Below are positions 4,869 through 42,996 of a stretch of 42,996 bases of DNA, one piece after another. Every line of letters begins with the position of its first letter. The stretch's first letter is position 1. The DNA lies in contig JAFRZY010000029.1 in the NCBI GenBank assembly GCA_017442305.1, forward strand, positions 1-42,996, given 5' to 3'. Below the pieces are notes generated by a model, which was not told the DNA's origin, searched no databases, and was given only the letters and a program-made list of their open reading frames with translations. This DNA is from Bacilli bacterium. GTDB lineage: Bacteria > Bacillota_I > Bacilli_A > RF39 > UBA660. Made by a program: the position numbers and the translations under genes.

Positions 4869-4876
4869 CCTTTTTG
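4840..4876 (+). terminator. suf operon terminator
   Basis: The stem AAAGGCTAT / ATAGCCTTT encloses a second stem GCGG-aata-CCGC and is followed by T residues. It overlaps the sufU stop codon and abuts the antisense promoter of toxin locus 1. Confidence 0.85.
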
Positions 4877-4902
4877 ACTTTTGTAAATATATATGATATA
4901 TT
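4874..4902 (+). promoter_or_regulatory. Antisense RNA promoter, toxin locus 1
   Basis: TTGACT (4874-4879), a 17-bp spacer and TATATT (4897-4902). The matching promoter in locus 2 is TTGACA-17-TATATT. Confidence 0.8.
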
Positions 4903-4908
4903 GAATAT

Positions 4909-5012
4909 GTCAAGGAAACTTGCATAAAATAAAAAAGGAACACTTAATATTGCTAGTGTTGAGTGCTACCTATTTAAAGGGTTTGCACCTAACTATTTGT
5001 TAGGTGCTTTTC
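4909..5012 (+). ncRNA. Candidate antisense antitoxin RNA 1
   Basis: The predicted transcript is about 100 nt. Its 5' end folds into a CAAG-GAAA-CTTG hairpin inside an 18-base block conserved in all three loci. It runs antisense through the 3' untranslated region of the toxin mRNA and ends at a strong terminator (GCACCTAAC-tattt-GTTAGGTGC, 4985-5007, then T residues) at the toxin stop codon. This convergent, 3'-overlapping layout matches known type I antitoxin RNAs. The function is inferred. Confidence 0.65.
4930..4960 (-). terminator. Toxin 1 mRNA terminator
   Basis: On the minus strand AACACT-loop-AGTGTT (4960-4955 with 4944-4939) is followed by CC and a T6 run. It places the mRNA 3' end inside the antisense gene. 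Confidence 0.7.
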
Positions 5013-5095
5013 TATTTTATAGTTACAAAGAGTAATGCTATAAGTAGAAGAATAATTATGATTAAAGAAAAGATTAAAAAATCTTTCTTTTTCAC
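5012..5095 (-). CDS. Small hydrophobic peptide, candidate type I toxin 1
   Basis: A 27-residue peptide starts with MKKKDFLIFSL and continues as one membrane span ending VTIK. The start is GTG at 5095, seven bases after GGAGGT (5103-5108, minus strand). An in-frame ATG at 5101 sits too close to that site. The Shine-Dalgarno is locked in a perfect 8-bp hairpin (5103-5110 with 5118-5125). A promoter lies upstream (TTGTTA-17-TATAAT, 5184 to 5156). Short Lys-capped single-span peptides with sequestered ribosome sites and an antisense partner are the hallmark of type I toxins (Fst, TxpA, BsrG class). No family match could be tested here. Confidence 0.65.
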   Translation of the reverse strand: MKKKDFLIFSLIIIILLLIALLFVTIK

Positions 5096-5102
5096 AAGCA
5101 TC

Positions 5103-5135
5103 ACCTCCAATTCTGTCTTGGAGGTAGCACCCAAC
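5103..5135 (-). promoter_or_regulatory. SD-sequestering hairpin and 5' long-range pairing element, locus 1
   Basis: ACCTCCAA / TTGGAGGT forms an 8-bp hairpin with a 7-nt loop over the toxin Shine-Dalgarno. The adjoining 5' segment (5123-5135) reads GTTGGGTGCTACC in the mRNA and can pair with GGTAGCACTCAAC at the mRNA 3' end (4958-4970) with one G-U pair. Confidence 0.7.
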
Positions 5136-5155
5136 TATTAAATATTCCTATAAAC

Positions 5156-6772: not shown

Positions 6773-6843
6773 AAGTTATCGACAGTTGACAGGAGGGGGG
6801 GGTATATTATACTAATCCTAGATAGTAGAAAGTAGGATAGTAT
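6773..6843 (+). promoter_or_regulatory. G8-spacer promoter of surface protein copy B
   Basis: The element holds a DnaA-box-like TTATCGACA (6776-6784), TTGACA (6786-6791), GGA plus eight G (6795-6802) and TATATTATACT, with TATACT (6808-6813) as the best -10. The -35/-10 spacer is 16 bp. A short leader with AGGA (6833-6836) leads to ATG 6844. Copies C and E have almost the same block, and D shares the promoter part. Confidence 0.8.
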
Positions 6844-8949
6844 ATGAGAAATAAAAAGACAGTAATCACTGTAACTAGTATAGTAGCAGTACTCCTAGTA
6901 ATAATCGGAGTAACATATGCATACTGGTTAGTAACAAAAACTCAAACTAATCAAAACTTAATTAGTTCTGGTTGTTTAGATATAACATTAAATGGTGAGA
7001 AAAATGATATTGAGTTAACTAATCAATTTCCACTAAGCGATGAAGATGGAATGAAACTAACACCATACGAATTTACAGTAACAAATAACTGTACAACAAG
7101 TGTAGATTATCAAGTAAATTTGGAATCAATTGGAGATAGTACTAATGCCATAAAGGCAAGTGCTATTAAAGTAGCTTTAAACGATGAAATAAAACTACTA
7201 ACAGCTGGAGGAAATGCAGAACCAACTCTAAGTGAAGCATATGAATCAAATATGATTTTATATGGCACATTAGCTGAGTCTTCAGAAGAAACGACAGATG
7301 ATACAATAACATATGAATTGCGTATATGGATAGATGCAAATGCTCCAATAAGTGAAATGAATAAAACATTCACAAGTAAAATAAGTGTAACAGCAGGACA
7401 AGGAGTAATAAATCCATATAAAGAAGGAACACTAGCATATGATATTCTATCTAACTATGGAGGAGCAGATTCAATTTCAAAAATAAATACTAAATTAACG
7501 GCAGGAGATACTAATACAACATCTCAAAAAGAATATTGGGAACCTTATGCAAAATATTGGTATGGAAGCTCATATACATTTGACGAAGAAAATGGATATA
7601 CTTTATCAGGGGTATTAACTCAAGCAACATTAGAAGAATGCCGTAATGGCACAAAAAACTGTGGAAATTATACGTTTGCTAGAACTGAACCAGATTATAG
7701 TGGTATAGAAATATATGAAATAACATCATTTGGTACGGGATCAGCGGTATCAAACAGTGATGTAACCTTTAAAAAAATAAAAGCAACTAATACTTTTGCA
7801 AATGTAATTGGTGATGGTGAAGTCGGTTTATATAAAGCCAAAGATGATTTAGGAACAAGTTATTATTTTCGTGGAGATGTAGAAAATAATCATGTTAAAT
7901 TTGGTGTAGAATCAGTTTATCAAATAGTATATAATAGCGATGAAATAGTTTTTGAAACTAAAAAAGTAGACAAACAGTTTTCAAACATGGAAGAATGTAT
8001 GAATAGCGAAGAATTTAAAAATGCTGATGCTGAAACAGATTTAGATGTTTGGTGTGCAAGAGATACAGAAGCAACTGAGGAATCTTATATACTATTTTAT
8101 GATGTTGGTGGATATGAAACAAAAAAAATAACCGATACTGCGAAGTTTTCGAATAGTTTAGAATGTTTATCTAGTGATAAATATAACACGCTTACTGGGG
8201 TATATGGAGAAGAAAATGTGTGGTGCGAAAAGACAGGGGAAGGGAATCCAATTTATTGGCGCATCGTTCGAATTAATGGCGATGGAACAATCCGTATGAT
8301 TTTTGATGGAAACAGCGCTATAGTAGAAACCAAATATAACAACAACTATGATAATTCAAAGTATGTTGGTTATACTTATAATGATGGAACAGGAAAGCAA
8401 GCAGATAGTACTATTAAGGGTTTAGTGGATTCATGGTATAAAGATAATTTATCAGAAAAATATGGTAAATATATTGCTGATGGAATATTTTGCAACGATA
8501 GAGAAATAGCAGAAAAAGTAGAAGTGTATCCTGGTTTATATCATGAATACTATGCGCCTTATAATAGATTAAATAATCTATCCCCACAGCTTACATGTCC
8601 AAATAAAAATGATAGATATACAGTGAATGATAAAATTGGTAATGGGTTACTTACTTATCCAGTTAGTTTAATAACGGCAGATGAGGTAATGTTTGCTGGA
8701 TCATTGCTAAATAGCAATACTAGCAATGATCATTATATGTTCTCCGATACATGGACTATTAGTCCTGCGTTTCAAGCCGCCGAAAGTTATATACATGCTT
8801 ATTATTCAATTGGAAATGGGAAATTAGCAGATAAATATCTCGCTTGGACGTATGATGTTCGTCCTGTAATTAACTTAAAAGCCGATGTTAAGTTTACTGG
8901 TAATGGTCGAATAGATACAAATAGTCCATATGAAATAGTTATGGAATAA
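6844..8949 (+). CDS. Large surface protein, copy B
   Basis: This is a secreted protein of 701 residues. Residues 1-28 form a signal peptide/anchor (RNKK, hydrophobic core, VTYA-YW cleavage-like site) as in TasA/camelysin proteins processed by SipW-type peptidases. The N-domain (about 30-190) contains SSGCLDI, VTNNC and ITYELRIWIDANAP. A central region has Cys pairs (ECRNGTKNCG at 266-273), then two related inserts (about 370-404 and 428-461, each FSN..EC..S...VWC). The C-domain starts at WRIVRINGDG (472-481) and ends RPVINLKADVKFTG. It stands alone between serS and miaB with its own G8 promoter. The function is unknown; an adhesin or antigenically varied coat protein is inferred. Confidence 0.85.
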   Translation: MRNKKTVITVTSIVAVLLVIIGVTYAYWLVTKTQTNQNLISSGCLDITLNGEKNDIELTNQFPLSDEDGMKLTPYEFTVTNNCTTSVDYQVNLESIGDSTNAIKASAIKVALNDEIKLLTAGGNAEPTLSEAYESNMILYGTLAESSEETTDDTITYELRIWIDANAPISEMNKTFTSKISVTAGQGVINPYKEGTLAYDILSNYGGADSISKINTKLTAGDTNTTSQKEYWEPYAKYWYGSSYTFDEENGYTLSGVLTQATLEECRNGTKNCGNYTFARTEPDYSGIEIYEITSFGTGSAVSNSDVTFKKIKATNTFANVIGDGEVGLYKAKDDLGTSYYFRGDVENNHVKFGVESVYQIVYNSDEIVFETKKVDKQFSNMEECMNSEEFKNADAETDLDVWCARDTEATEESYILFYDVGGYETKKITDTAKFSNSLECLSSDKYNTLTGVYGEENVWCEKTGEGNPIYWRIVRINGDGTIRMIFDGNSAIVETKYNNNYDNSKYVGYTYNDGTGKQADSTIKGLVDSWYKDNLSEKYGKYIADGIFCNDREIAEKVEVYPGLYHEYYAPYNRLNNLSPQLTCPNKNDRYTVNDKIGNGLLTYPVSLITADEVMFAGSLLNSNTSNDHYMFSDTWTISPAFQAAESYIHAYYSIGNGKLADKYLAWTYDVRPVINLKADVKFTGNGRIDTNSPYEIVME

Positions 8950-15459: not shown

Positions 15460-15488
15460 TTGACTCGACATTAATATTATATTATACT
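15460..15488 (+). promoter_or_regulatory. Promoter of the repeat surface protein
   Basis: TTGACT (15460-15465), 17 bp, TATACT (15483-15488), ahead of ATG 15512. Confidence 0.8.
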
Positions 15489-18157: not shown

Positions 18158-18228
18158 AAGTTATTCACAGTTGACAGGAGGGGGGGGTATATTATACTAA
18201 TCCTAGATAATAGAAAGTAGGATAGTAT
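18158..18228 (+). promoter_or_regulatory. G8-spacer promoter of surface protein copy C
   Basis: TTATTCACA (18161-18169) fits the DnaA-box form TTATNCACA. TTGACA is at 18171-18176, eight G at 18180-18187 and TATACT at 18193-18198. The spacer is 16 bp. The leader to ATG 18229 is nearly identical to that of copy B. Confidence 0.8.
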
Positions 18229-19956
18229 ATGAGAAATAAAAAGATAGTAATCACAGTAACAAGTATAGTAGCAGTACTCCTAGTAATAATCGGAGTAACG
18301 TATGCATACTGGTTAGTGACAAAAACACAAACTAATCAAAATGTAATCTCATCAGGATGTTTAGATATATCATTAAGTGGTGAGAAAAACGATATTGAAT
18401 TAACTGATCAATTTCCGATGAGCGATGAAGATGGAATGAAACTAACACCATACGAATTTACAGTAACAAATAACTGTAATACATCAGTAGATTATCAAGT
18501 TAATTTAGAAAGTGTTGGCGATTCTACATCAGCAATTAAAGCAAGTGCTATTAAAGTTGCGCTAAACGATGAAATAAAACTATTAACTGCTGGTGGAAAT
18601 ACAGAACCAACAGTTTCAGGAGCATACGAATCAAATATGATTTTATATGGAACATTAGCTGGGTCATCAGAAGAAACAGAAGAAGATGAAGTAACCTATG
18701 AGTTAAGAATCTGGATAGATGCGAATGCCCCAATAAGTGAACAAAATAAAACATTCCAAAGTAAAATAAGTGTAACAATAGGACAAGGAATAATAAATCC
18801 ATATAAAGAAGGTACATTAGCTTATGATATACTTTCAAATTATGGAGGAATAAGCGCAATAACTGAAGTAACTGATTTTAGTTCTGGGACAACTGCGAGT
18901 GATGCCGGACTATATAAAGCACAAGATGATTTAGGTGTGAGCTATTACTTTAGAGGAGCACCAACAAATAATTATGTTAAATTTGGAACATATTCGGTTG
19001 ATATTATGAATCCTAATTATTTAGATACACCTTATGGCATTTGCCCTTCTGGGGATTGTTCTATATATATTGTTGATGTTTTTGAAACCATGGCTCAATG
19101 CGAAGAAACGAGAAATATTAACCTAAGTAATGGTATGCCATCAGATTATGTTTGCGGGAAAATATTAGATGAAAAAGCGGGGGATCCAATGTATTGGCGA
19201 ATCGTAAGGATTAATGGCGATGGAACAATCCGACTTGTTTATGATGGAACAAGTCCTGTAACAAATAGAACAGCCCATACAGCAACAATCGGTGCTACAG
19301 CATATAACACAAATGCTAATGATCCAAAATATGTAGGATATACCTATGATGTAAATGGTGTTGAAACAGCTAGTACAATTAAAGGTGTAGTAGATGACTG
19401 GTACGAAGAACACTTAAAAGATACATATGAAAAATATATAGCAGATAGTATCTTCTGTAATGATAGAGAAATATATAAGTATCAATATTTAAATGAAGAT
19501 TGGACAGTAATAACAGATCCAAATCAAGCGACGTATATTAATGAATATTATTCTCCATATGGCAGATTAGCAGATAATAAAGCACCAGAATTAACATGTA
19601 CAAATAAAAGTGATAGATATACAACAAATGATAAGTTAGGGAATGGCTTACTAAGTAATCCAGTAGGATTATTAACGGCAGACGAAGTATTCTTTGCAGG
19701 AGGCACAAATTTAGCTAATAATACATATTACCTATATAGCAATGAAAACTATTGGACCTTCTCTCCAGAATCTTTCAATGATGGTTACCCTCAACCATTT
19801 GTGTGGTTTGTTAGTGGCGATGGCATTGTTACAAATACCGGTGTAACCAGTGTTGAAATTAATGCGCGCCCAGTAATCAACTTAAAAGCTGATGTTAAGT
19901 TTACTGGTGATGGTCGAATTGATACAAATACCCCATACGAAATAGTAATGAATTAA
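18229..19956 (+). CDS. Large surface protein, copy C
   Basis: This 575-residue paralogue of A, B and D has the same signal peptide and N-domain (about 1-190, almost identical). It is the shortest full copy: the central YWYG...ECRNGTKTCG module found in A and B is absent, and the chain passes from SNYGG almost directly to TTASDAGLYKAQDDLG. A short Cys-containing insert (AQCEETR, DYVCGK) precedes WRIVRINGDG (about residue 323). The end is RPVINLKADVKFTG. It lies alone between rplT and ftsA and is transcribed from its own G8 promoter. Confidence 0.85.
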   Translation: MRNKKIVITVTSIVAVLLVIIGVTYAYWLVTKTQTNQNVISSGCLDISLSGEKNDIELTDQFPMSDEDGMKLTPYEFTVTNNCNTSVDYQVNLESVGDSTSAIKASAIKVALNDEIKLLTAGGNTEPTVSGAYESNMILYGTLAGSSEETEEDEVTYELRIWIDANAPISEQNKTFQSKISVTIGQGIINPYKEGTLAYDILSNYGGISAITEVTDFSSGTTASDAGLYKAQDDLGVSYYFRGAPTNNYVKFGTYSVDIMNPNYLDTPYGICPSGDCSIYIVDVFETMAQCEETRNINLSNGMPSDYVCGKILDEKAGDPMYWRIVRINGDGTIRLVYDGTSPVTNRTAHTATIGATAYNTNANDPKYVGYTYDVNGVETASTIKGVVDDWYEEHLKDTYEKYIADSIFCNDREIYKYQYLNEDWTVITDPNQATYINEYYSPYGRLADNKAPELTCTNKSDRYTTNDKLGNGLLSNPVGLLTADEVFFAGGTNLANNTYYLYSNENYWTFSPESFNDGYPQPFVWFVSGDGIVTNTGVTSVEINARPVINLKADVKFTGDGRIDTNTPYEIVMN

Positions 19957-28104: not shown

Positions 28105-28142
28105 CTATCCACAGTTGACAAGCGGGGGGGGTATATTATACT
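28105..28142 (+). promoter_or_regulatory. G8-spacer promoter of surface protein copy D
   Basis: CTATCCACA (28105-28113), TTGACA (28115-28120), AGC plus eight G (28124-28131) and TATACT (28137-28142). The spacer is 16 bp. Unlike B, C and E, it is followed by about 130 bases of unrelated leader. Confidence 0.8.
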
Positions 28143-28274: not shown

Positions 28275-30164
28275 ATGAAAAATAAAAAGACAGTAATCAC
28301 AATAACAAGTATAGTAGCAGTACTCCTAGTAATAATTGGAGTAACATATGCATATTGGTTAGTAACTAAGACTCAAACTAATCAAAATATAATCTCATCA
28401 GGATGTTTAGATATATCATTAAGTGGTGAGAAAAATGATATAGAATTAACTGATCAATTTCCAATGAGCGATGAAGATGGAATGAAACTAACACCATACG
28501 AATTTACAGTAACAAATAATTGTAATACTTCAGTAGATTATCAAGTAAATTTAGAATCAATAGGTGACTCAAATAACGCAATTAAAGCAAGTGCAATCAA
28601 AGTAGCGTTAAACGACGAAATAAAGCGTTTAAGACAAGGTGGGAATGTTGCTACTACCTTAAGTGAAGCATACGAATCTAATAGAATACTATTTGGGACA
28701 TTAGCGGGTTCATCAGAAGAAACAGAAGAAGATACCGTAACATATGAATTACGCATCTGGATAGATGCAAATGCTCCAATAAGTGAACAAAATAAAACAT
28801 TCAGAAGTAAAATCAGTGTAACAATAGGACAAGGTATATTTAATCCTTATAAAGAAGGAACACTAGCGTATGATATTTTGTCTAATTATGGTGGAGAAGA
28901 AGCTTATTCTTCAGTAAATACTTATTGGACTATGGAAAATATTGAAAACGCACCAACAGAAAATGTGTCTGTACCAGATGCTACAGATTTATGGTTTTCT
29001 GATGAATATATTTTTGATGTAAACACCGGAATGTACAAATTAAGTGGTGAATTAATGAAAGCAACAATGATTGAATGTCGAGGAACTGAAGGACTATGTA
29101 AAAAGTATTCGCTATTAAGTACTGATGAAAATTCTGAATCTTACAAGTTGTTTGAAGTAACGGAATATATAGGTGATTTTGTTGTTAAGGCCAAAGTAGC
29201 CAAATCTAAGAATGAAGAAAGCTCTGTTATATCAACTACCGAATCTGGTTTATACAAAACCGCTGATGAATTAGGAGATACCTATTATTTTAGAGGAGAT
29301 ATAAAAAACAATTATGTCAAGTTTGGAACCTGGGGAAACGAAGCAACTGCAGTTAGACTTTATGCCCTTTCTAATAATACTTATACTGAATTTGGTTCTA
29401 TGTTAGAGTGTGAAATGCGAAGAGCACAATATTCTGAATCTCAGGACTATGACTACGAGTGCAGAACAGAAAACTATACTCCAGAAGAAGCGGGAGAAGA
29501 TATGTATTGGCGAATTGTTCGCATCAATGGTGATGGGTCAATTAGATTAATTTATGATGGAACATCACCTGTAGAAAACGATGTTAGTCATAAGGATTAT
29601 ATAAAGACAGACGGATTCAGCTATTATGAAGGAATGGGGCTTGTTTCTGCTTCAAAATATGCAGTTGTATTTAATAACCAAACTGTTTCTGGAAGAACTA
29701 AAGGCCTTTTGGATTTATGGTATGAAGATAATTTAAAAAACGACTATGCGAAATATATAGCAGATTCAGTTTTCTGCAGTAATTCAAGCAAACTTAATTC
29801 AAGATTCGATGGTAATTATGATAATGACGATAGACTTTACGAAAGTCCAATCATAAGTTGTTCTAATAAGGATGACAGATATACAATGAACACAAATATT
29901 GGAAATGGGTTACTTACAAATCCGGTAGGATTGTTGTCAGTTGATGAGTTTGTGCTATCAAGTTATAATCAGACCAAAGATTTTATATCTAATTCAGAGT
30001 TTTGGTTAATGACACCGCTTTCCAATTCTGTGGTTTATTTAAGTACTGGCGCTGATGACAATTATTATCCTCATAATATTCGCCCGGTAATAAATTTAAA
30101 AGCTGATGTTAAGTTTAGGGGCGAAGGAACTATCGATAGTCCATACGAAATTGTAATACAATAA
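28275..30164 (+). CDS. Large surface protein, copy D
   Basis: This 629-residue paralogue has the conserved signal peptide (KNKKTVITITSIVAVLL) and N-domain to about residue 195. It then diverges more than the other copies. The central module is recognisable (DLWFSDEYIF, MIECRGTEGLCKKYS), and a Cys insert (LECEMRRAQ, YDYECR) precedes WRIVRINGDG near residue 411. The C-domain lacks the YVGYTYDVNG segment and ends RPVINLKADVKFRG. The ribosome site is AAGGAAGGA. Its leader differs from the other copies and includes a second promoter. Confidence 0.85.
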   Translation: MKNKKTVITITSIVAVLLVIIGVTYAYWLVTKTQTNQNIISSGCLDISLSGEKNDIELTDQFPMSDEDGMKLTPYEFTVTNNCNTSVDYQVNLESIGDSNNAIKASAIKVALNDEIKRLRQGGNVATTLSEAYESNRILFGTLAGSSEETEEDTVTYELRIWIDANAPISEQNKTFRSKISVTIGQGIFNPYKEGTLAYDILSNYGGEEAYSSVNTYWTMENIENAPTENVSVPDATDLWFSDEYIFDVNTGMYKLSGELMKATMIECRGTEGLCKKYSLLSTDENSESYKLFEVTEYIGDFVVKAKVAKSKNEESSVISTTESGLYKTADELGDTYYFRGDIKNNYVKFGTWGNEATAVRLYALSNNTYTEFGSMLECEMRRAQYSESQDYDYECRTENYTPEEAGEDMYWRIVRINGDGSIRLIYDGTSPVENDVSHKDYIKTDGFSYYEGMGLVSASKYAVVFNNQTVSGRTKGLLDLWYEDNLKNDYAKYIADSVFCSNSSKLNSRFDGNYDNDDRLYESPIISCSNKDDRYTMNTNIGNGLLTNPVGLLSVDEFVLSSYNQTKDFISNSEFWLMTPLSNSVVYLSTGADDNYYPHNIRPVINLKADVKFRGEGTIDSPYEIVIQ

Positions 30165-32350: not shown

Positions 32351-34333
32351 GTGAATAAAGAAGATTTAAAAATAGTAAATAATCTAAAAATATTGGGTAT
32401 AGATATGATTGACCATGCGGGAAGTGGTCACCCTGGTATAGTTCTTGGTGCTGCACCTATAATTTATACGTTGTATGCTAAACACATGAAAATTAATCCT
32501 AGTAATCCTAAATGGATTAATCGAGATAGATTTGTATTATCAGCGGGTCATGCATCAGCACTTTTATATGCGACATTACATATGGCTGGTTATGATTTAA
32601 GTATCAATGATTTAAAAAGTTTTAGAGAACTTAATTCGGTAACTCCCGGACATCCAGAATATAATGTTACTCCTGGTGTTGATGTATCAACTGGACCTTT
32701 GGGTCAAGGAGTTGCTAATGCTGTAGGTATGGCAATGGCCGAAAGATATATTCGCAATTTAATAAAAAAATATGATAAAAATTCTAATTTGATAGATTAT
32801 TACACATATTGTCTATGTGGAGATGGAGATTTAATGGAAGGTGTTGCAGCTGAAGCGGCGTCTTTTGCAGGTAATCAAAATCTTGACAAATTAATAATAT
32901 TATATGATAGAAATCAAATCAGTTTAGATGGTAAAACAAATATTACATTTGATGAAGATGTAGAAGAACGCTTTGAGTCTTACGGTTTTAATGTTATTGA
33001 AGTAAAAAATGGTGAAAACGTAAAAGCTATTAGTAACGCCATTACTGAAGCTAAAAAATCTAAAATGCCTTCTTTAATAATTGTTAATACAATTATAGGG
33101 AGAGGTAGTGAGTTAGAAAATACGAATAAGGTACATGGAAAACCTTTAGAAAAGACTGATATTTCTAAGTTGCGTGAAATTTTAAAAATTACCAGTGAAC
33201 CATTTGTAGTAGATGAAGAAGCTAAAATGTTATTCCGTAACCAAATTACTAAACGGTGTAATGAAGAGTTTAAAAGATGGTTAGTAGAATACAAAAGAGT
33301 TAGTGAAAGCAATAATTCTAAATTAGGCAGTATTTTAAATTCTCTTGAAAAAGGGATTTTGGCGATAGATTTTGATAGTAGTAATTTTAAATTAGACCAA
33401 AGATACAAAGAAGAACTAAGATTATCTAATCATCGAGTAATGAATATAATTAATGAAAAATCACATTTCTTTTTAGGAGGTAGTGCTGATCTTTCTAGCT
33501 CATGTAAAACAAATTTAGAAACTTCAGGAATTTGTAGTAGAGAAAATCCGGTAGGTAAGAATATCTATTTTGGAGTAAGAGAGCATGCGATGGGGGCAAT
33601 ATTAAATGGCATGGCTTTATCTAACCTAAAAGTTTTTGGTAGCACATTTTTAGTATTTAGTGATTATTTAAAACCAGCAATGCGTATGAGTGCATTAATG
33701 GATTTACCAGTAACCTATATATTTACTCATGATTCTATTGCTGTTGGTCAAGATGGTCCAACACATGAGCCTGTTGAACAGCTTTCTATGCTTAGAACGA
33801 TTCCAAATATGAAAACTTTTAGACCAGCAGATATTAACGAAGTTATGGGGTCTTGGGAATATATTTTAAAAAATAATCATCCAGCTTCTTTGGTAATAAG
33901 TAAAAATGAAATGCCGATGCTAACAGGAACTAATGCCAAATATGTTTCTTATGGCGCGTATATGGTTAGAAGAGAAATTGGTGAGTTAGAAGCAATAATA
34001 ATAGCAACGGGAACTGAAGTAAAAACCGCTATAGAATTAGCAGAAGATTTAACTTTGATGGGACATCATATAAGAGTTGTATCAATGCCATCAATGGAGC
34101 TTTTCTTAAAACAAGATAAAAAATATGAAGAAATATTACTTCCAAAACATATAAAAACTATTGTAATAGAACCATCTAATAAATTGATGTGGTGCAGATT
34201 TGCAACTAGCGAAGAATATGTACTAGGAATAGATGATTTTGGTGCTAGCGGCAAATCAAAAGATGTTTTAAAAAAATATGGCTATGATTATGAATCGTTA
34301 AAAGAAAGATGTATTGAATTGTTGAAATTTTGA
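32351..34333 (+). CDS. tkt: Transketolase
   Basis: Transketolase is a thiamine-diphosphate enzyme of the pentose phosphate pathway. GTG 32351 is chosen (AGGATGTGAT upstream); GTG 32342 is in frame but too close to that site. The 660 residues contain GSGHPGIVLGAAP, the TPP motif GDGDLMEGVAAEA, the Pyr domain with FGVREHAMGAI and FTHDSIAVGQDGPTHEP, and the C-terminal domain. No hairpin terminator follows. The -35 of the antisense promoter of toxin locus 2 overlaps its stop codon. Confidence 0.95.
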   Translation: MNKEDLKIVNNLKILGIDMIDHAGSGHPGIVLGAAPIIYTLYAKHMKINPSNPKWINRDRFVLSAGHASALLYATLHMAGYDLSINDLKSFRELNSVTPGHPEYNVTPGVDVSTGPLGQGVANAVGMAMAERYIRNLIKKYDKNSNLIDYYTYCLCGDGDLMEGVAAEAASFAGNQNLDKLIILYDRNQISLDGKTNITFDEDVEERFESYGFNVIEVKNGENVKAISNAITEAKKSKMPSLIIVNTIIGRGSELENTNKVHGKPLEKTDISKLREILKITSEPFVVDEEAKMLFRNQITKRCNEEFKRWLVEYKRVSESNNSKLGSILNSLEKGILAIDFDSSNFKLDQRYKEELRLSNHRVMNIINEKSHFFLGGSADLSSSCKTNLETSGICSRENPVGKNIYFGVREHAMGAILNGMALSNLKVFGSTFLVFSDYLKPAMRMSALMDLPVTYIFTHDSIAVGQDGPTHEPVEQLSMLRTIPNMKTFRPADINEVMGSWEYILKNNHPASLVISKNEMPMLTGTNAKYVSYGAYMVRREIGELEAIIIATGTEVKTAIELAEDLTLMGHHIRVVSMPSMELFLKQDKKYEEILLPKHIKTIVIEPSNKLMWCRFATSEEYVLGIDDFGASGKSKDVLKKYGYDYESLKERCIELLKF

Positions 34334-34358
34334 CAATTATAAATATTTATGATATATT
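34330..34358 (+). promoter_or_regulatory. Antisense RNA promoter, toxin locus 2
   Basis: TTGACA (34330-34335), 17 bp, TATATT (34353-34358). The -35 overlaps the tkt stop. Confidence 0.82.
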
Positions 34359-34364
34359 GAATGT

Positions 34365-34477
34365 GTCAAGGAAACTTGCATAAAATAAAAAAGGGAATAC
34401 TTAACATTCGCTAGTTGAGTACTCACCTACATGGTTTTTGTACTTAATCTAAAGCTTTAGATTGAGTACTTTTTTTA
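34365..34477 (+). ncRNA. Candidate antisense antitoxin RNA 2
   Basis: The predicted RNA is about 110 nt. It carries the conserved 5' hairpin block (GTCAAGGAAACTTGCATA) and ends at a long hairpin (GTACTTAATCTAAAG / CTTTAGATTGAGTAC, 34440-34469) with T7. It is antisense to the 3' untranslated region of toxin mRNA 2. Confidence 0.65.
34390..34423 (-). terminator. Toxin 2 mRNA terminator
   Basis: On the minus strand AGTACTCAAC / GTTAAGTATT (9 of 10 pairs), then CCC and T6. Confidence 0.65.
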
Positions 34478-34489
34478 TTTTAATCTTTA

Positions 34490-34564
34490 TCATTTAAATA
34501 ATAAGAGGATTAATAAAAAGATGATAATGATTAAAGAAAAAATTAAAAAATCTTTCTTATTCAA
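34490..34564 (-). CDS. Small hydrophobic peptide, candidate type I toxin 2
   Basis: The 24-residue peptide (first residues MNKKDFLIFSL, then one span ending LLLFK) is clearly homologous to the peptide of locus 1. The start is TTG at 34564, eight bases after GGAGGT. The ATG just after the ribosome site runs into a stop after four codons. The ribosome site pairs with CCTCCT upstream (hairpin 34574-34589). Promoter TTGTTC-17-TATAAC lies at 34650-34622. The antisense RNA and layout are as in loci 1 and 3. Confidence 0.65.
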   Translation of the reverse strand: MNKKDFLIFSLIIIIFLLILLLFK

Positions 34565-34572
34565 TTTTCATC

Positions 34573-34600
34573 ACCTCCTTTTTAGGAGGCAAGTACTCAA
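34573..34600 (-). promoter_or_regulatory. SD hairpin and 5' long-range pairing element, locus 2
   Basis: CCTCCT / AGGAGG covers the ribosome site. TTGAGTACTTGCCT at the mRNA 5' end (34600-34587) pairs over 14 positions with the 3' end (34428-34415), with two G-U pairs. Confidence 0.65.
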
Positions 34601-34621
34601 TTGTTAAATGTTCCTATTAAT

Positions 34622-42593: not shown

Positions 42594-42692
42594 ATGAGGA
42601 AAAGAGTATTCGTACTAGAACTACTCAAAAACATTGCTCTCATTTTATTACTCCTAATTATTATGATAATAGTAATAAAAAAAGACATCTAA
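42594..42692 (+). CDS. Small hydrophobic peptide, candidate type I toxin 3
   Basis: The 32-residue peptide has a basic start (MRKRVFVLELLKN), one membrane span (IALILLLLIIMIIVI) and a charged end (KKDI). The start is ATG with GGGAGGT nine bases upstream. The sequence differs from peptides 1 and 2 although the surrounding RNA elements are conserved, so this copy may have different target specificity. The locus is inverted relative to loci 1 and 2, with the peptide on the plus strand. Confidence 0.65.
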   Translation: MRKRVFVLELLKNIALILLLLIIMIIVIKKDI

Positions 42693-42787
42693 GCGATAGC
42701 TTAAATGTCATAACACTTATTTAGGGTAGACATTCAACACATCAAAACTGAATGTTCCCTTTTTTAATATATGCAAGTTTCCTTGAC
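42676..42787 (-). ncRNA. Candidate antisense antitoxin RNA 3
   Basis: The minus-strand promoter is TTGATA (42822-42817), 17 bp, TACAAT (42799-42794). The RNA carries the conserved 5' hairpin block (42789-42771) and ends at GACATTTAAGC / GCTTAGATGTC (42709-42684) with T7. It covers the toxin mRNA 3' untranslated region. Confidence 0.65.
42730..42765 (+). terminator. Toxin 3 mRNA terminator
   Basis: ACATTCA-loop-TGAATGT, then TCCC and T6. Confidence 0.7.
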
Positions 42788-42815
42788 ATATTCATTGTAA
42801 CACAGCAAAAAACAA

Positions 42816-42883
42816 TTATCAACAGTTGACAGAAGGGGGGGGTATATTATACTAATCCTAGATAGTAGAAAGTAGGATAGTAT
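42816..42883 (+). promoter_or_regulatory. G8-spacer promoter of surface protein copy E
   Basis: TTATCAACA (42816-42824), TTGACA (42826-42831), GAA plus eight G (42835-42842) and TATACT (42848-42853). The spacer is 16 bp. Its -35 lies three bases from the -35 of the divergent antisense RNA 3 promoter. Confidence 0.8.
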
Positions 42884-42996
42884 ATGAGAAATAAGAAGGT
42901 AGTAATCACTGTAACTAGTATAGTAGCAATACTCCTAGTGATAATCGGAGTAACGTACGCATACTGGTTAGTAACAAAGACTCAAACTAATCAAAA
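42884..42996 (+). CDS. Large surface protein, copy E (3' end outside window)
   Basis: Only the first 37 codons are present: RNKKVVITVTSIVAILLVI, then GVTYAYW and KTQTNQ, the signal peptide and start of the N-domain shared with copies B-D. The short leader with AGGA is nearly identical to copies B and C. The rest lies beyond the window. Confidence 0.85.
   Translation, partial: MRNKKVVITVTSIVAILLVIIGVTYAYWLVTKTQTNQ

Follow-up and report, generated by a model that had tools for sequence, protein, structure and literature searches.

Poly-G tracts within promoter spacers of putative surface-protein genes: a probable phase-variation system in uncultured Bacilli

Genes for a family of putative surface proteins in an uncultured member of the Bacilli are preceded by promoters in which a run of G residues fills part of the spacer between the -35 and -10 hexamers. 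We consider it probable, though short of certain, that slippage in this run makes expression phase-variable as part of a genome-wide surface-protein system. The promoters are predicted to be of the sigma-A type. Replication slippage would add or remove G residues and shift the spacer toward or away from 17 bp, and transcription of the downstream surface or secreted protein would be raised or lowered in a heritable and reversible manner. We infer, rather than show, that slippage is the cause, that lengths switch inside a population and that transcription is affected; tract variation probably lets single cells switch their surface proteins up or down at random. The layout is one promoter per surface-protein gene, scattered over the genome, and the design recurs, in varied form, across a family of uncultured host-associated Bacilli.

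The window, that is, the whole stretch of DNA analysed (42,996 nucleotides), is contig C29 of genome G000, a MAG of 657 kb estimated to be 64.6% complete. An earlier note on this DNA had described four elements of the form TTGACA-N3-G8-TATATTATACT; all four are where it had placed them (Table 1), and the distance of 16 bp between TTGACA and TATACT holds in every copy. No match to the 28-bp element is expected in shuffled sequence. The G8 runs are as rare as had been claimed, being the only G or C runs of at least six bases in the window (GC content 28.6%), and G7 matches numbered 8 against a mean of 0.34 in dinucleotide shuffles. This anatomy is demonstrated by the sequence alone. The 5′ UTR of copy D is of a second type, unrelated to that of copies B, C, and E; the same promoter thus stands before two unrelated leaders, which indicates conservation of the promoter block in its own right and not simply as a by-product of gene duplication.

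Each copy precedes one long gene, and the copies are scattered amid housekeeping genes: the upstream neighbours, named from their translations, are serS (copy B), rplT (copy C), and a rhomboid-like gene (copy D). The window's three complete proteins begin alike, with an N-terminus of the form MRNKKTVITVTSIVAVLLVIIGVTYAYW that by its sequence is a SipW-type signal or membrane anchor; beyond it they differ. A Pfam search of the surface proteins gave nothing above the cut-off and no confident domain; the 701-aa protein had a weak, sub-threshold match to Peptidase_M73/camelysin. An N-terminal hydrophobic segment was found in 96 of 114 distinct ORFs behind G-run promoters, compared with 157 of 463 ORFs elsewhere in this DNA (84% vs 34%; Fisher p about 5e-23). 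The contrast is approximate, since ORF calls were simple and some background ORFs are spurious. Judged by these predicted N-termini, G-run promoters control secreted or membrane-anchored proteins, and to that extent the link with surface proteins is demonstrated. At some loci (L028, L037, L040, L282) the promoter precedes small helical proteins that are not of the SipW type and that resemble WXG100/T7SS substrates or a VirB2-like pilin.

Table 1. Positions of promoters, adjoining elements and genes in the window.
Feature	Position	Strand	Details
Promoter copy B	6786..6813	+	Pattern match; spacer 16 bp; -35 TTGACA 6786-6791, GGA, G8 6795-6802, TATAT, -10 TATACT 6808-6813
Promoter copy C	18171..18198	+	G8 at 18180-18187; spacer 16 bp
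Promoter copy D	28115..28142	+	G8 at 28124-28131; spacer 16 bp
Promoter copy E	42826..42853	+	G8 at 42835-42842; spacer 16 bp
Upstream box, copy B	6776..6785	+	DnaA-box-like 10-mer TTATCGACAG adjoining -35
Upstream box, copy C	18161..18170	+	TTATTCACAG
Upstream box, copy D	28105..28114	+	CTATCCACAG
Upstream box, copy E	42816..42825	+	TTATCAACAG
701-aa protein	6844..8949	+	ORF and translation; N-terminal membrane anchor / SipW-type signal (..GVTYAYW..)
575-aa paralogue of 701-aa protein	18229..19956	+	ORF and translation
629-aa paralogue of 701-aa protein	28275..30164	+	ORF and translation
Start of further paralogue	42884..42996	+	MRNKKVVITVTSIVAILLVIIGVTYAYW..; cut by contig end; sequence read directly
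Ordinary promoter of secreted protein	15460..15488	+	No G run; spacer exactly 17 bp
Other listed ordinary promoters	4874, 16643, 30899, 34330		All with 17-bp spacer
Intergenic element with TGTCAAGGAAACTTGCATA	4870-5150		
Intergenic element with TGTCAAGGAAACTTGCATA	34330-34620		
Intergenic element with TGTCAAGGAAACTTGCATA	42600-42800	-	

Genome G000 holds 16 promoter copies, 15 of the exact design (the window's four included) and one variant, TTGACAGAAG8ATATTATACT. Sixteen of the 18 runs of at least seven G residues in this genome lie inside the element. The earlier note had conceded that all four copies are of equal length; this stands within the window and fails genome-wide, where 14 of the 16 copies carry G8, one G9, and one G10. 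These lengths correspond to spacers of 16, 17, and 18 bp, so that one-base changes cross the 17-bp optimum. Most copies, at G8, would reach 17 bp by the gain of one G. The exact G000 pattern was not found in a scan of named genomes, from which the window's own genome was possibly excluded.

A relaxed pattern (TTGACN{0,9}G7N{0,12}TATAMT) was used to search the family. It matched in 102 of 385 genomes and 43 of 118 genera, with up to 42 matches per genome; both the flanking bases and the position of the G run within the spacer vary among these genomes. The reversed pattern, used as a control, had zero matches in the family, and the strand control with a C run had only one in 193 genomes. In the same class outside the family, nine of 341 genomes matched, with at most three copies each. 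Among named genomes, most of the matches listed came from uncultured Bacilli and Clostridia that live in the guts of animals; the others included Candidatus Ancillula, Treponema ruminis, and Pumilibacter muris. In the genomes with the most copies, nearly all runs of at least seven G residues lie in such promoters, as in G079 (42/43), G177 (38/42), G347 (27/30), G260 (27/29), G157 (26/31), and G255 (26/33). Other genomes, such as G244 (37/56) and G405 (22/38), are less exclusive. No such promoter was found in the congener G150, which has only three G runs. A search of IMG/VR returned 11 scattered matches of no clear relevance.

Several promoters of the TTGACAAGC type were observed in Candidatus Ancillula sp. 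Gsp477_bin129 (L101, L117, L129, L135, L148, L186, L203), with tracts of G9 to G13 before TATAAT and more varied genes downstream; this is apparently an independent case. Five copies of TTGACTTA-G9/10-TATAAT were seen in G071 (C15, C19, C26, C53, C67). Their hexamers are 11-12 bp apart, too short for a standard promoter, and the true -35 could be farther upstream. In G297 and G334 (L242-L248), tracts of unusual length (G12 to G16) adjoin the -10, some with a one-base interruption.

Spacer and tract lengths were compiled from the search outputs for 352 promoters in 65 genomes, 60 of them of the family. Ordinary promoters without a G run showed a spacer peak at 17 bp when the whole range was scanned across roughly 0.8 Mb of this DNA. 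The window scan that gave the five ordinary promoters of Table 1 looked for 17-bp spacers only. G-run promoters are demonstrably off this optimum: the spacer is 17 bp in 26 of the 352 (7%), 15 or 16 bp in 207, and 18 to 20 bp in 102. Copies within one genome are not independent; with one value per architecture, 22 of 174 have a 17-bp spacer. The tract touches the -35, lies in mid-spacer, or touches the -10, depending on the genus. The conserved feature, as far as sequence comparison goes, is thus the presence of a G run at any place in a spacer whose total length stays within a few bases of the optimum. Variable position combined with a total length near the optimum fits the needs of a slippage switch and is not the picture expected of a fixed operator.

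Tract length itself demonstrably varies, both among copies and between orthologues. The number of G residues differs in 25 of 47 multi-copy groups whose flanks are exactly identical within one genome. In G255 the form TTGACTCC-Gn-TATTATATAAT occurs 26 times, with a spacer of 15 bp in 13 copies and of 16 bp in the other 13; one 15-bp copy has A plus G7, with otherwise identical flanks. If these were two fixed classes, near paralogues would have equal lengths. Nearest paralogues agreed in 11 of 25 cases, which is the chance level, so length is unrelated to paralogue similarity in this genome. One clear orthologous promoter pair was identified, in the sister species G079 (C1:24995) and G260 (C1:5609). 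Over about 60 bases around the promoter the only difference is G8 vs G7, which gives spacers of 18 and 17 bp; mean column identity of the alignment was 92%. Between G255 and G301 there were too few orthologues for a comparison of tract lengths. Lengths are uniform for the commonest flanks in G264 (12/12) and G032 (7/7). Consensus assemblies show only the majority length at each locus and do not reveal how strongly these proteins are expressed.

An upstream box adjoins the -35 in G000, and its TA and ACAG are invariant in all 16 copies. It is DnaA-box-like, a 9-mer of the TTATCCACA type. Several other genera have a similar motif, each at its own constant distance (-14, -16, -25), and loci with the motif were also noted in G035, G400, G023, G255, and G264. 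Overall, a DnaA-box-like motif lies upstream of 36 of 159 G-run promoters and of one of 159 control stretches. An intergenic element with TGTCAAGGAAACTTGCATA also occurs three times in the window. Read on the opposite strand, the first two copies have coding capacity for a short hydrophobic peptide (KKKDFLIFSLIIIILLLIALLFVTIK type), and the elements resemble a type I toxin-antitoxin locus; an Rfam search of them gave no match.

It is conceivable, although we hold it only tentatively and as the less likely outcome, that the promoters form a contingency regulon, in which dozens of dispersed promoters carry one evolved off-optimum switch and bring about an almost mutually exclusive display of antigens with no recombination involved, perhaps in connection with replication. 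The shared switch would comprise the box, the -35, the poly-G spacer, and the -10, with the majority length off the optimum. Each cell would express only the few copies that had slipped to about 17 bp, and the tie to replication might run through the DnaA-box-like element.

The earlier note had set a slippage-prone spacer against a fixed regulator-binding site, and the comparative evidence (lengths, positions, and spacers off 17 bp) favours the former. A fixed operator, in which the G run would be bound by a regulator of a surface-protein regulon, has some appeal given the strict G-not-C orientation and the invariant TA..ACAG box in all 16 copies. The candidates would be a CsoR/RcnR-like reader of G tracts, or a factor that recognises both the run and the DnaA-box-like element. 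Operators of the CsoR/RcnR family contain G runs, and the G035 promoter has what we take to be a resemblance to the RcnR-type TACT-G6-N-AGTA operator. However, tract length and spacer position differ widely, no dyad is common to the genera, and 18 of 30 genomes lack the CsoR/RcnR family, among them G079 with its 42 copies, G157, G035, and G297. A CsoR/RcnR/FrmR operator was rejected as a general cause, because the regulator does not track the element, and we regard a fixed operator of any kind as very unlikely. An artefact of assembly or sequencing at homopolymers and repeats seems scarcely credible. It is true that all the family data are metagenome assemblies and that many copies lie near contig ends; yet different projects have independently assembled the element, at least one complete isolate chromosome from another group (Treponema ruminis, not of the family) carries it too, the flanks are exact while the run alone varies, and a tract of G8 to G9 is not too long for short reads.

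Evolutionary tuning is harder to dismiss, even if we think it improbable. Here the easily mutated G spacer would set a fixed strength for each gene and lineage, with no switching within the population, as the uniform lengths in G264 and G032, the intact mismatch repair, and the mild rather than extreme departure of most spacers from 17 bp would allow. The independence of length and paralogue similarity in G255 speaks against it, as do the retention of pure G runs while neighbouring bases vary and the existence of the long, very slippery tracts of G297 and G334. Slippage is favoured by the variation in length with identical flanks, between orthologues, and independently of paralogue similarity, by the different placement of the tract across genera, and by the clustering of spacers at least one base off 17 bp. 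An ordinary, lineage-fixed difference in promoter strength is not excluded. The G8 length of 14 of the 16 G000 copies and the uniform lengths in G264 and G032 count against slippage, as does the bias for G over C, which slippage alone does not predict; possible reasons for the bias are shared ancestry or a promoter requirement for G residues on that strand. Of 28 genomes, 26 have MutS; the cells are therefore not general mutators through its loss, and loss of mismatch repair as the driver was ruled out. With MutS present, G8 may slip slowly. Reiterative transcription at the start site was ruled out as well, since the G run lies upstream of the -10.

If slippage of the spacer is confirmed, this would be among the largest promoter-level phase-variation systems known to us, and it would reside in uncultured gut Bacilli; there is no sign here that these Bacilli are pathogens. 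Such a system would suggest that host-associated bacteria in general can vary their surfaces by switching poly-G promoters. It also predicts that tract lengths differ within one sample, which should be visible in existing metagenome reads. No paper linking RF39-type Bacilli with phase variation was found in a literature search; membership of the genome in that order is itself inferred from its setting.

Related systems are known from other bacteria. In Neisseria meningitidis porA, expression is set by a poly-G tract in the spacer, which shifts the separation of -35 and -10 about a value of 17 bp; in Treponema pallidum tp0126, an OmpW homologue, poly-G likewise occupies the spacer and transcription is best when this measures 17 bp (both as summarised in PMC7864442). 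Like tp0126 and tprE/G/J, the promoters described here carry poly-G before a surface-protein gene. Unlike them, they number up to 42 per genome in an uncultured Bacilli family, whereas a few promoters in one species are concerned in T. pallidum; length variation in vivo has been demonstrated only in Treponema and not in the Bacilli system. The porA case differs in that it is a single gene for an outer-membrane porin in which switching has been measured, and N. meningitidis opc in that its poly-C tract overlaps the -35. Runs of G with a range of lengths in reads have been described in predicted promoters of Helicobacter canadensis (PMC2823697), but only five possible promoter tracts are involved, one of them poly-A, and most tracts lie in coding regions. 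In Mycoplasma gallisepticum, many paralogous vlhA surface-protein genes each have a repeat in the promoter region (PMC6258824). These are GAA trinucleotide repeats upstream of the promoter, a feature that the window element does not have; its repeat is a G homopolymer inside the spacer. Four sequence-level features of the porA and tp0126 kind are present: a homopolymer within the spacer, crossing of 17 bp, length variation with fixed flanks, and surface or secreted targets. By this analogy, the Bacilli system would resemble porA and tp0126 in mode and come nearer to vlhA in scale.
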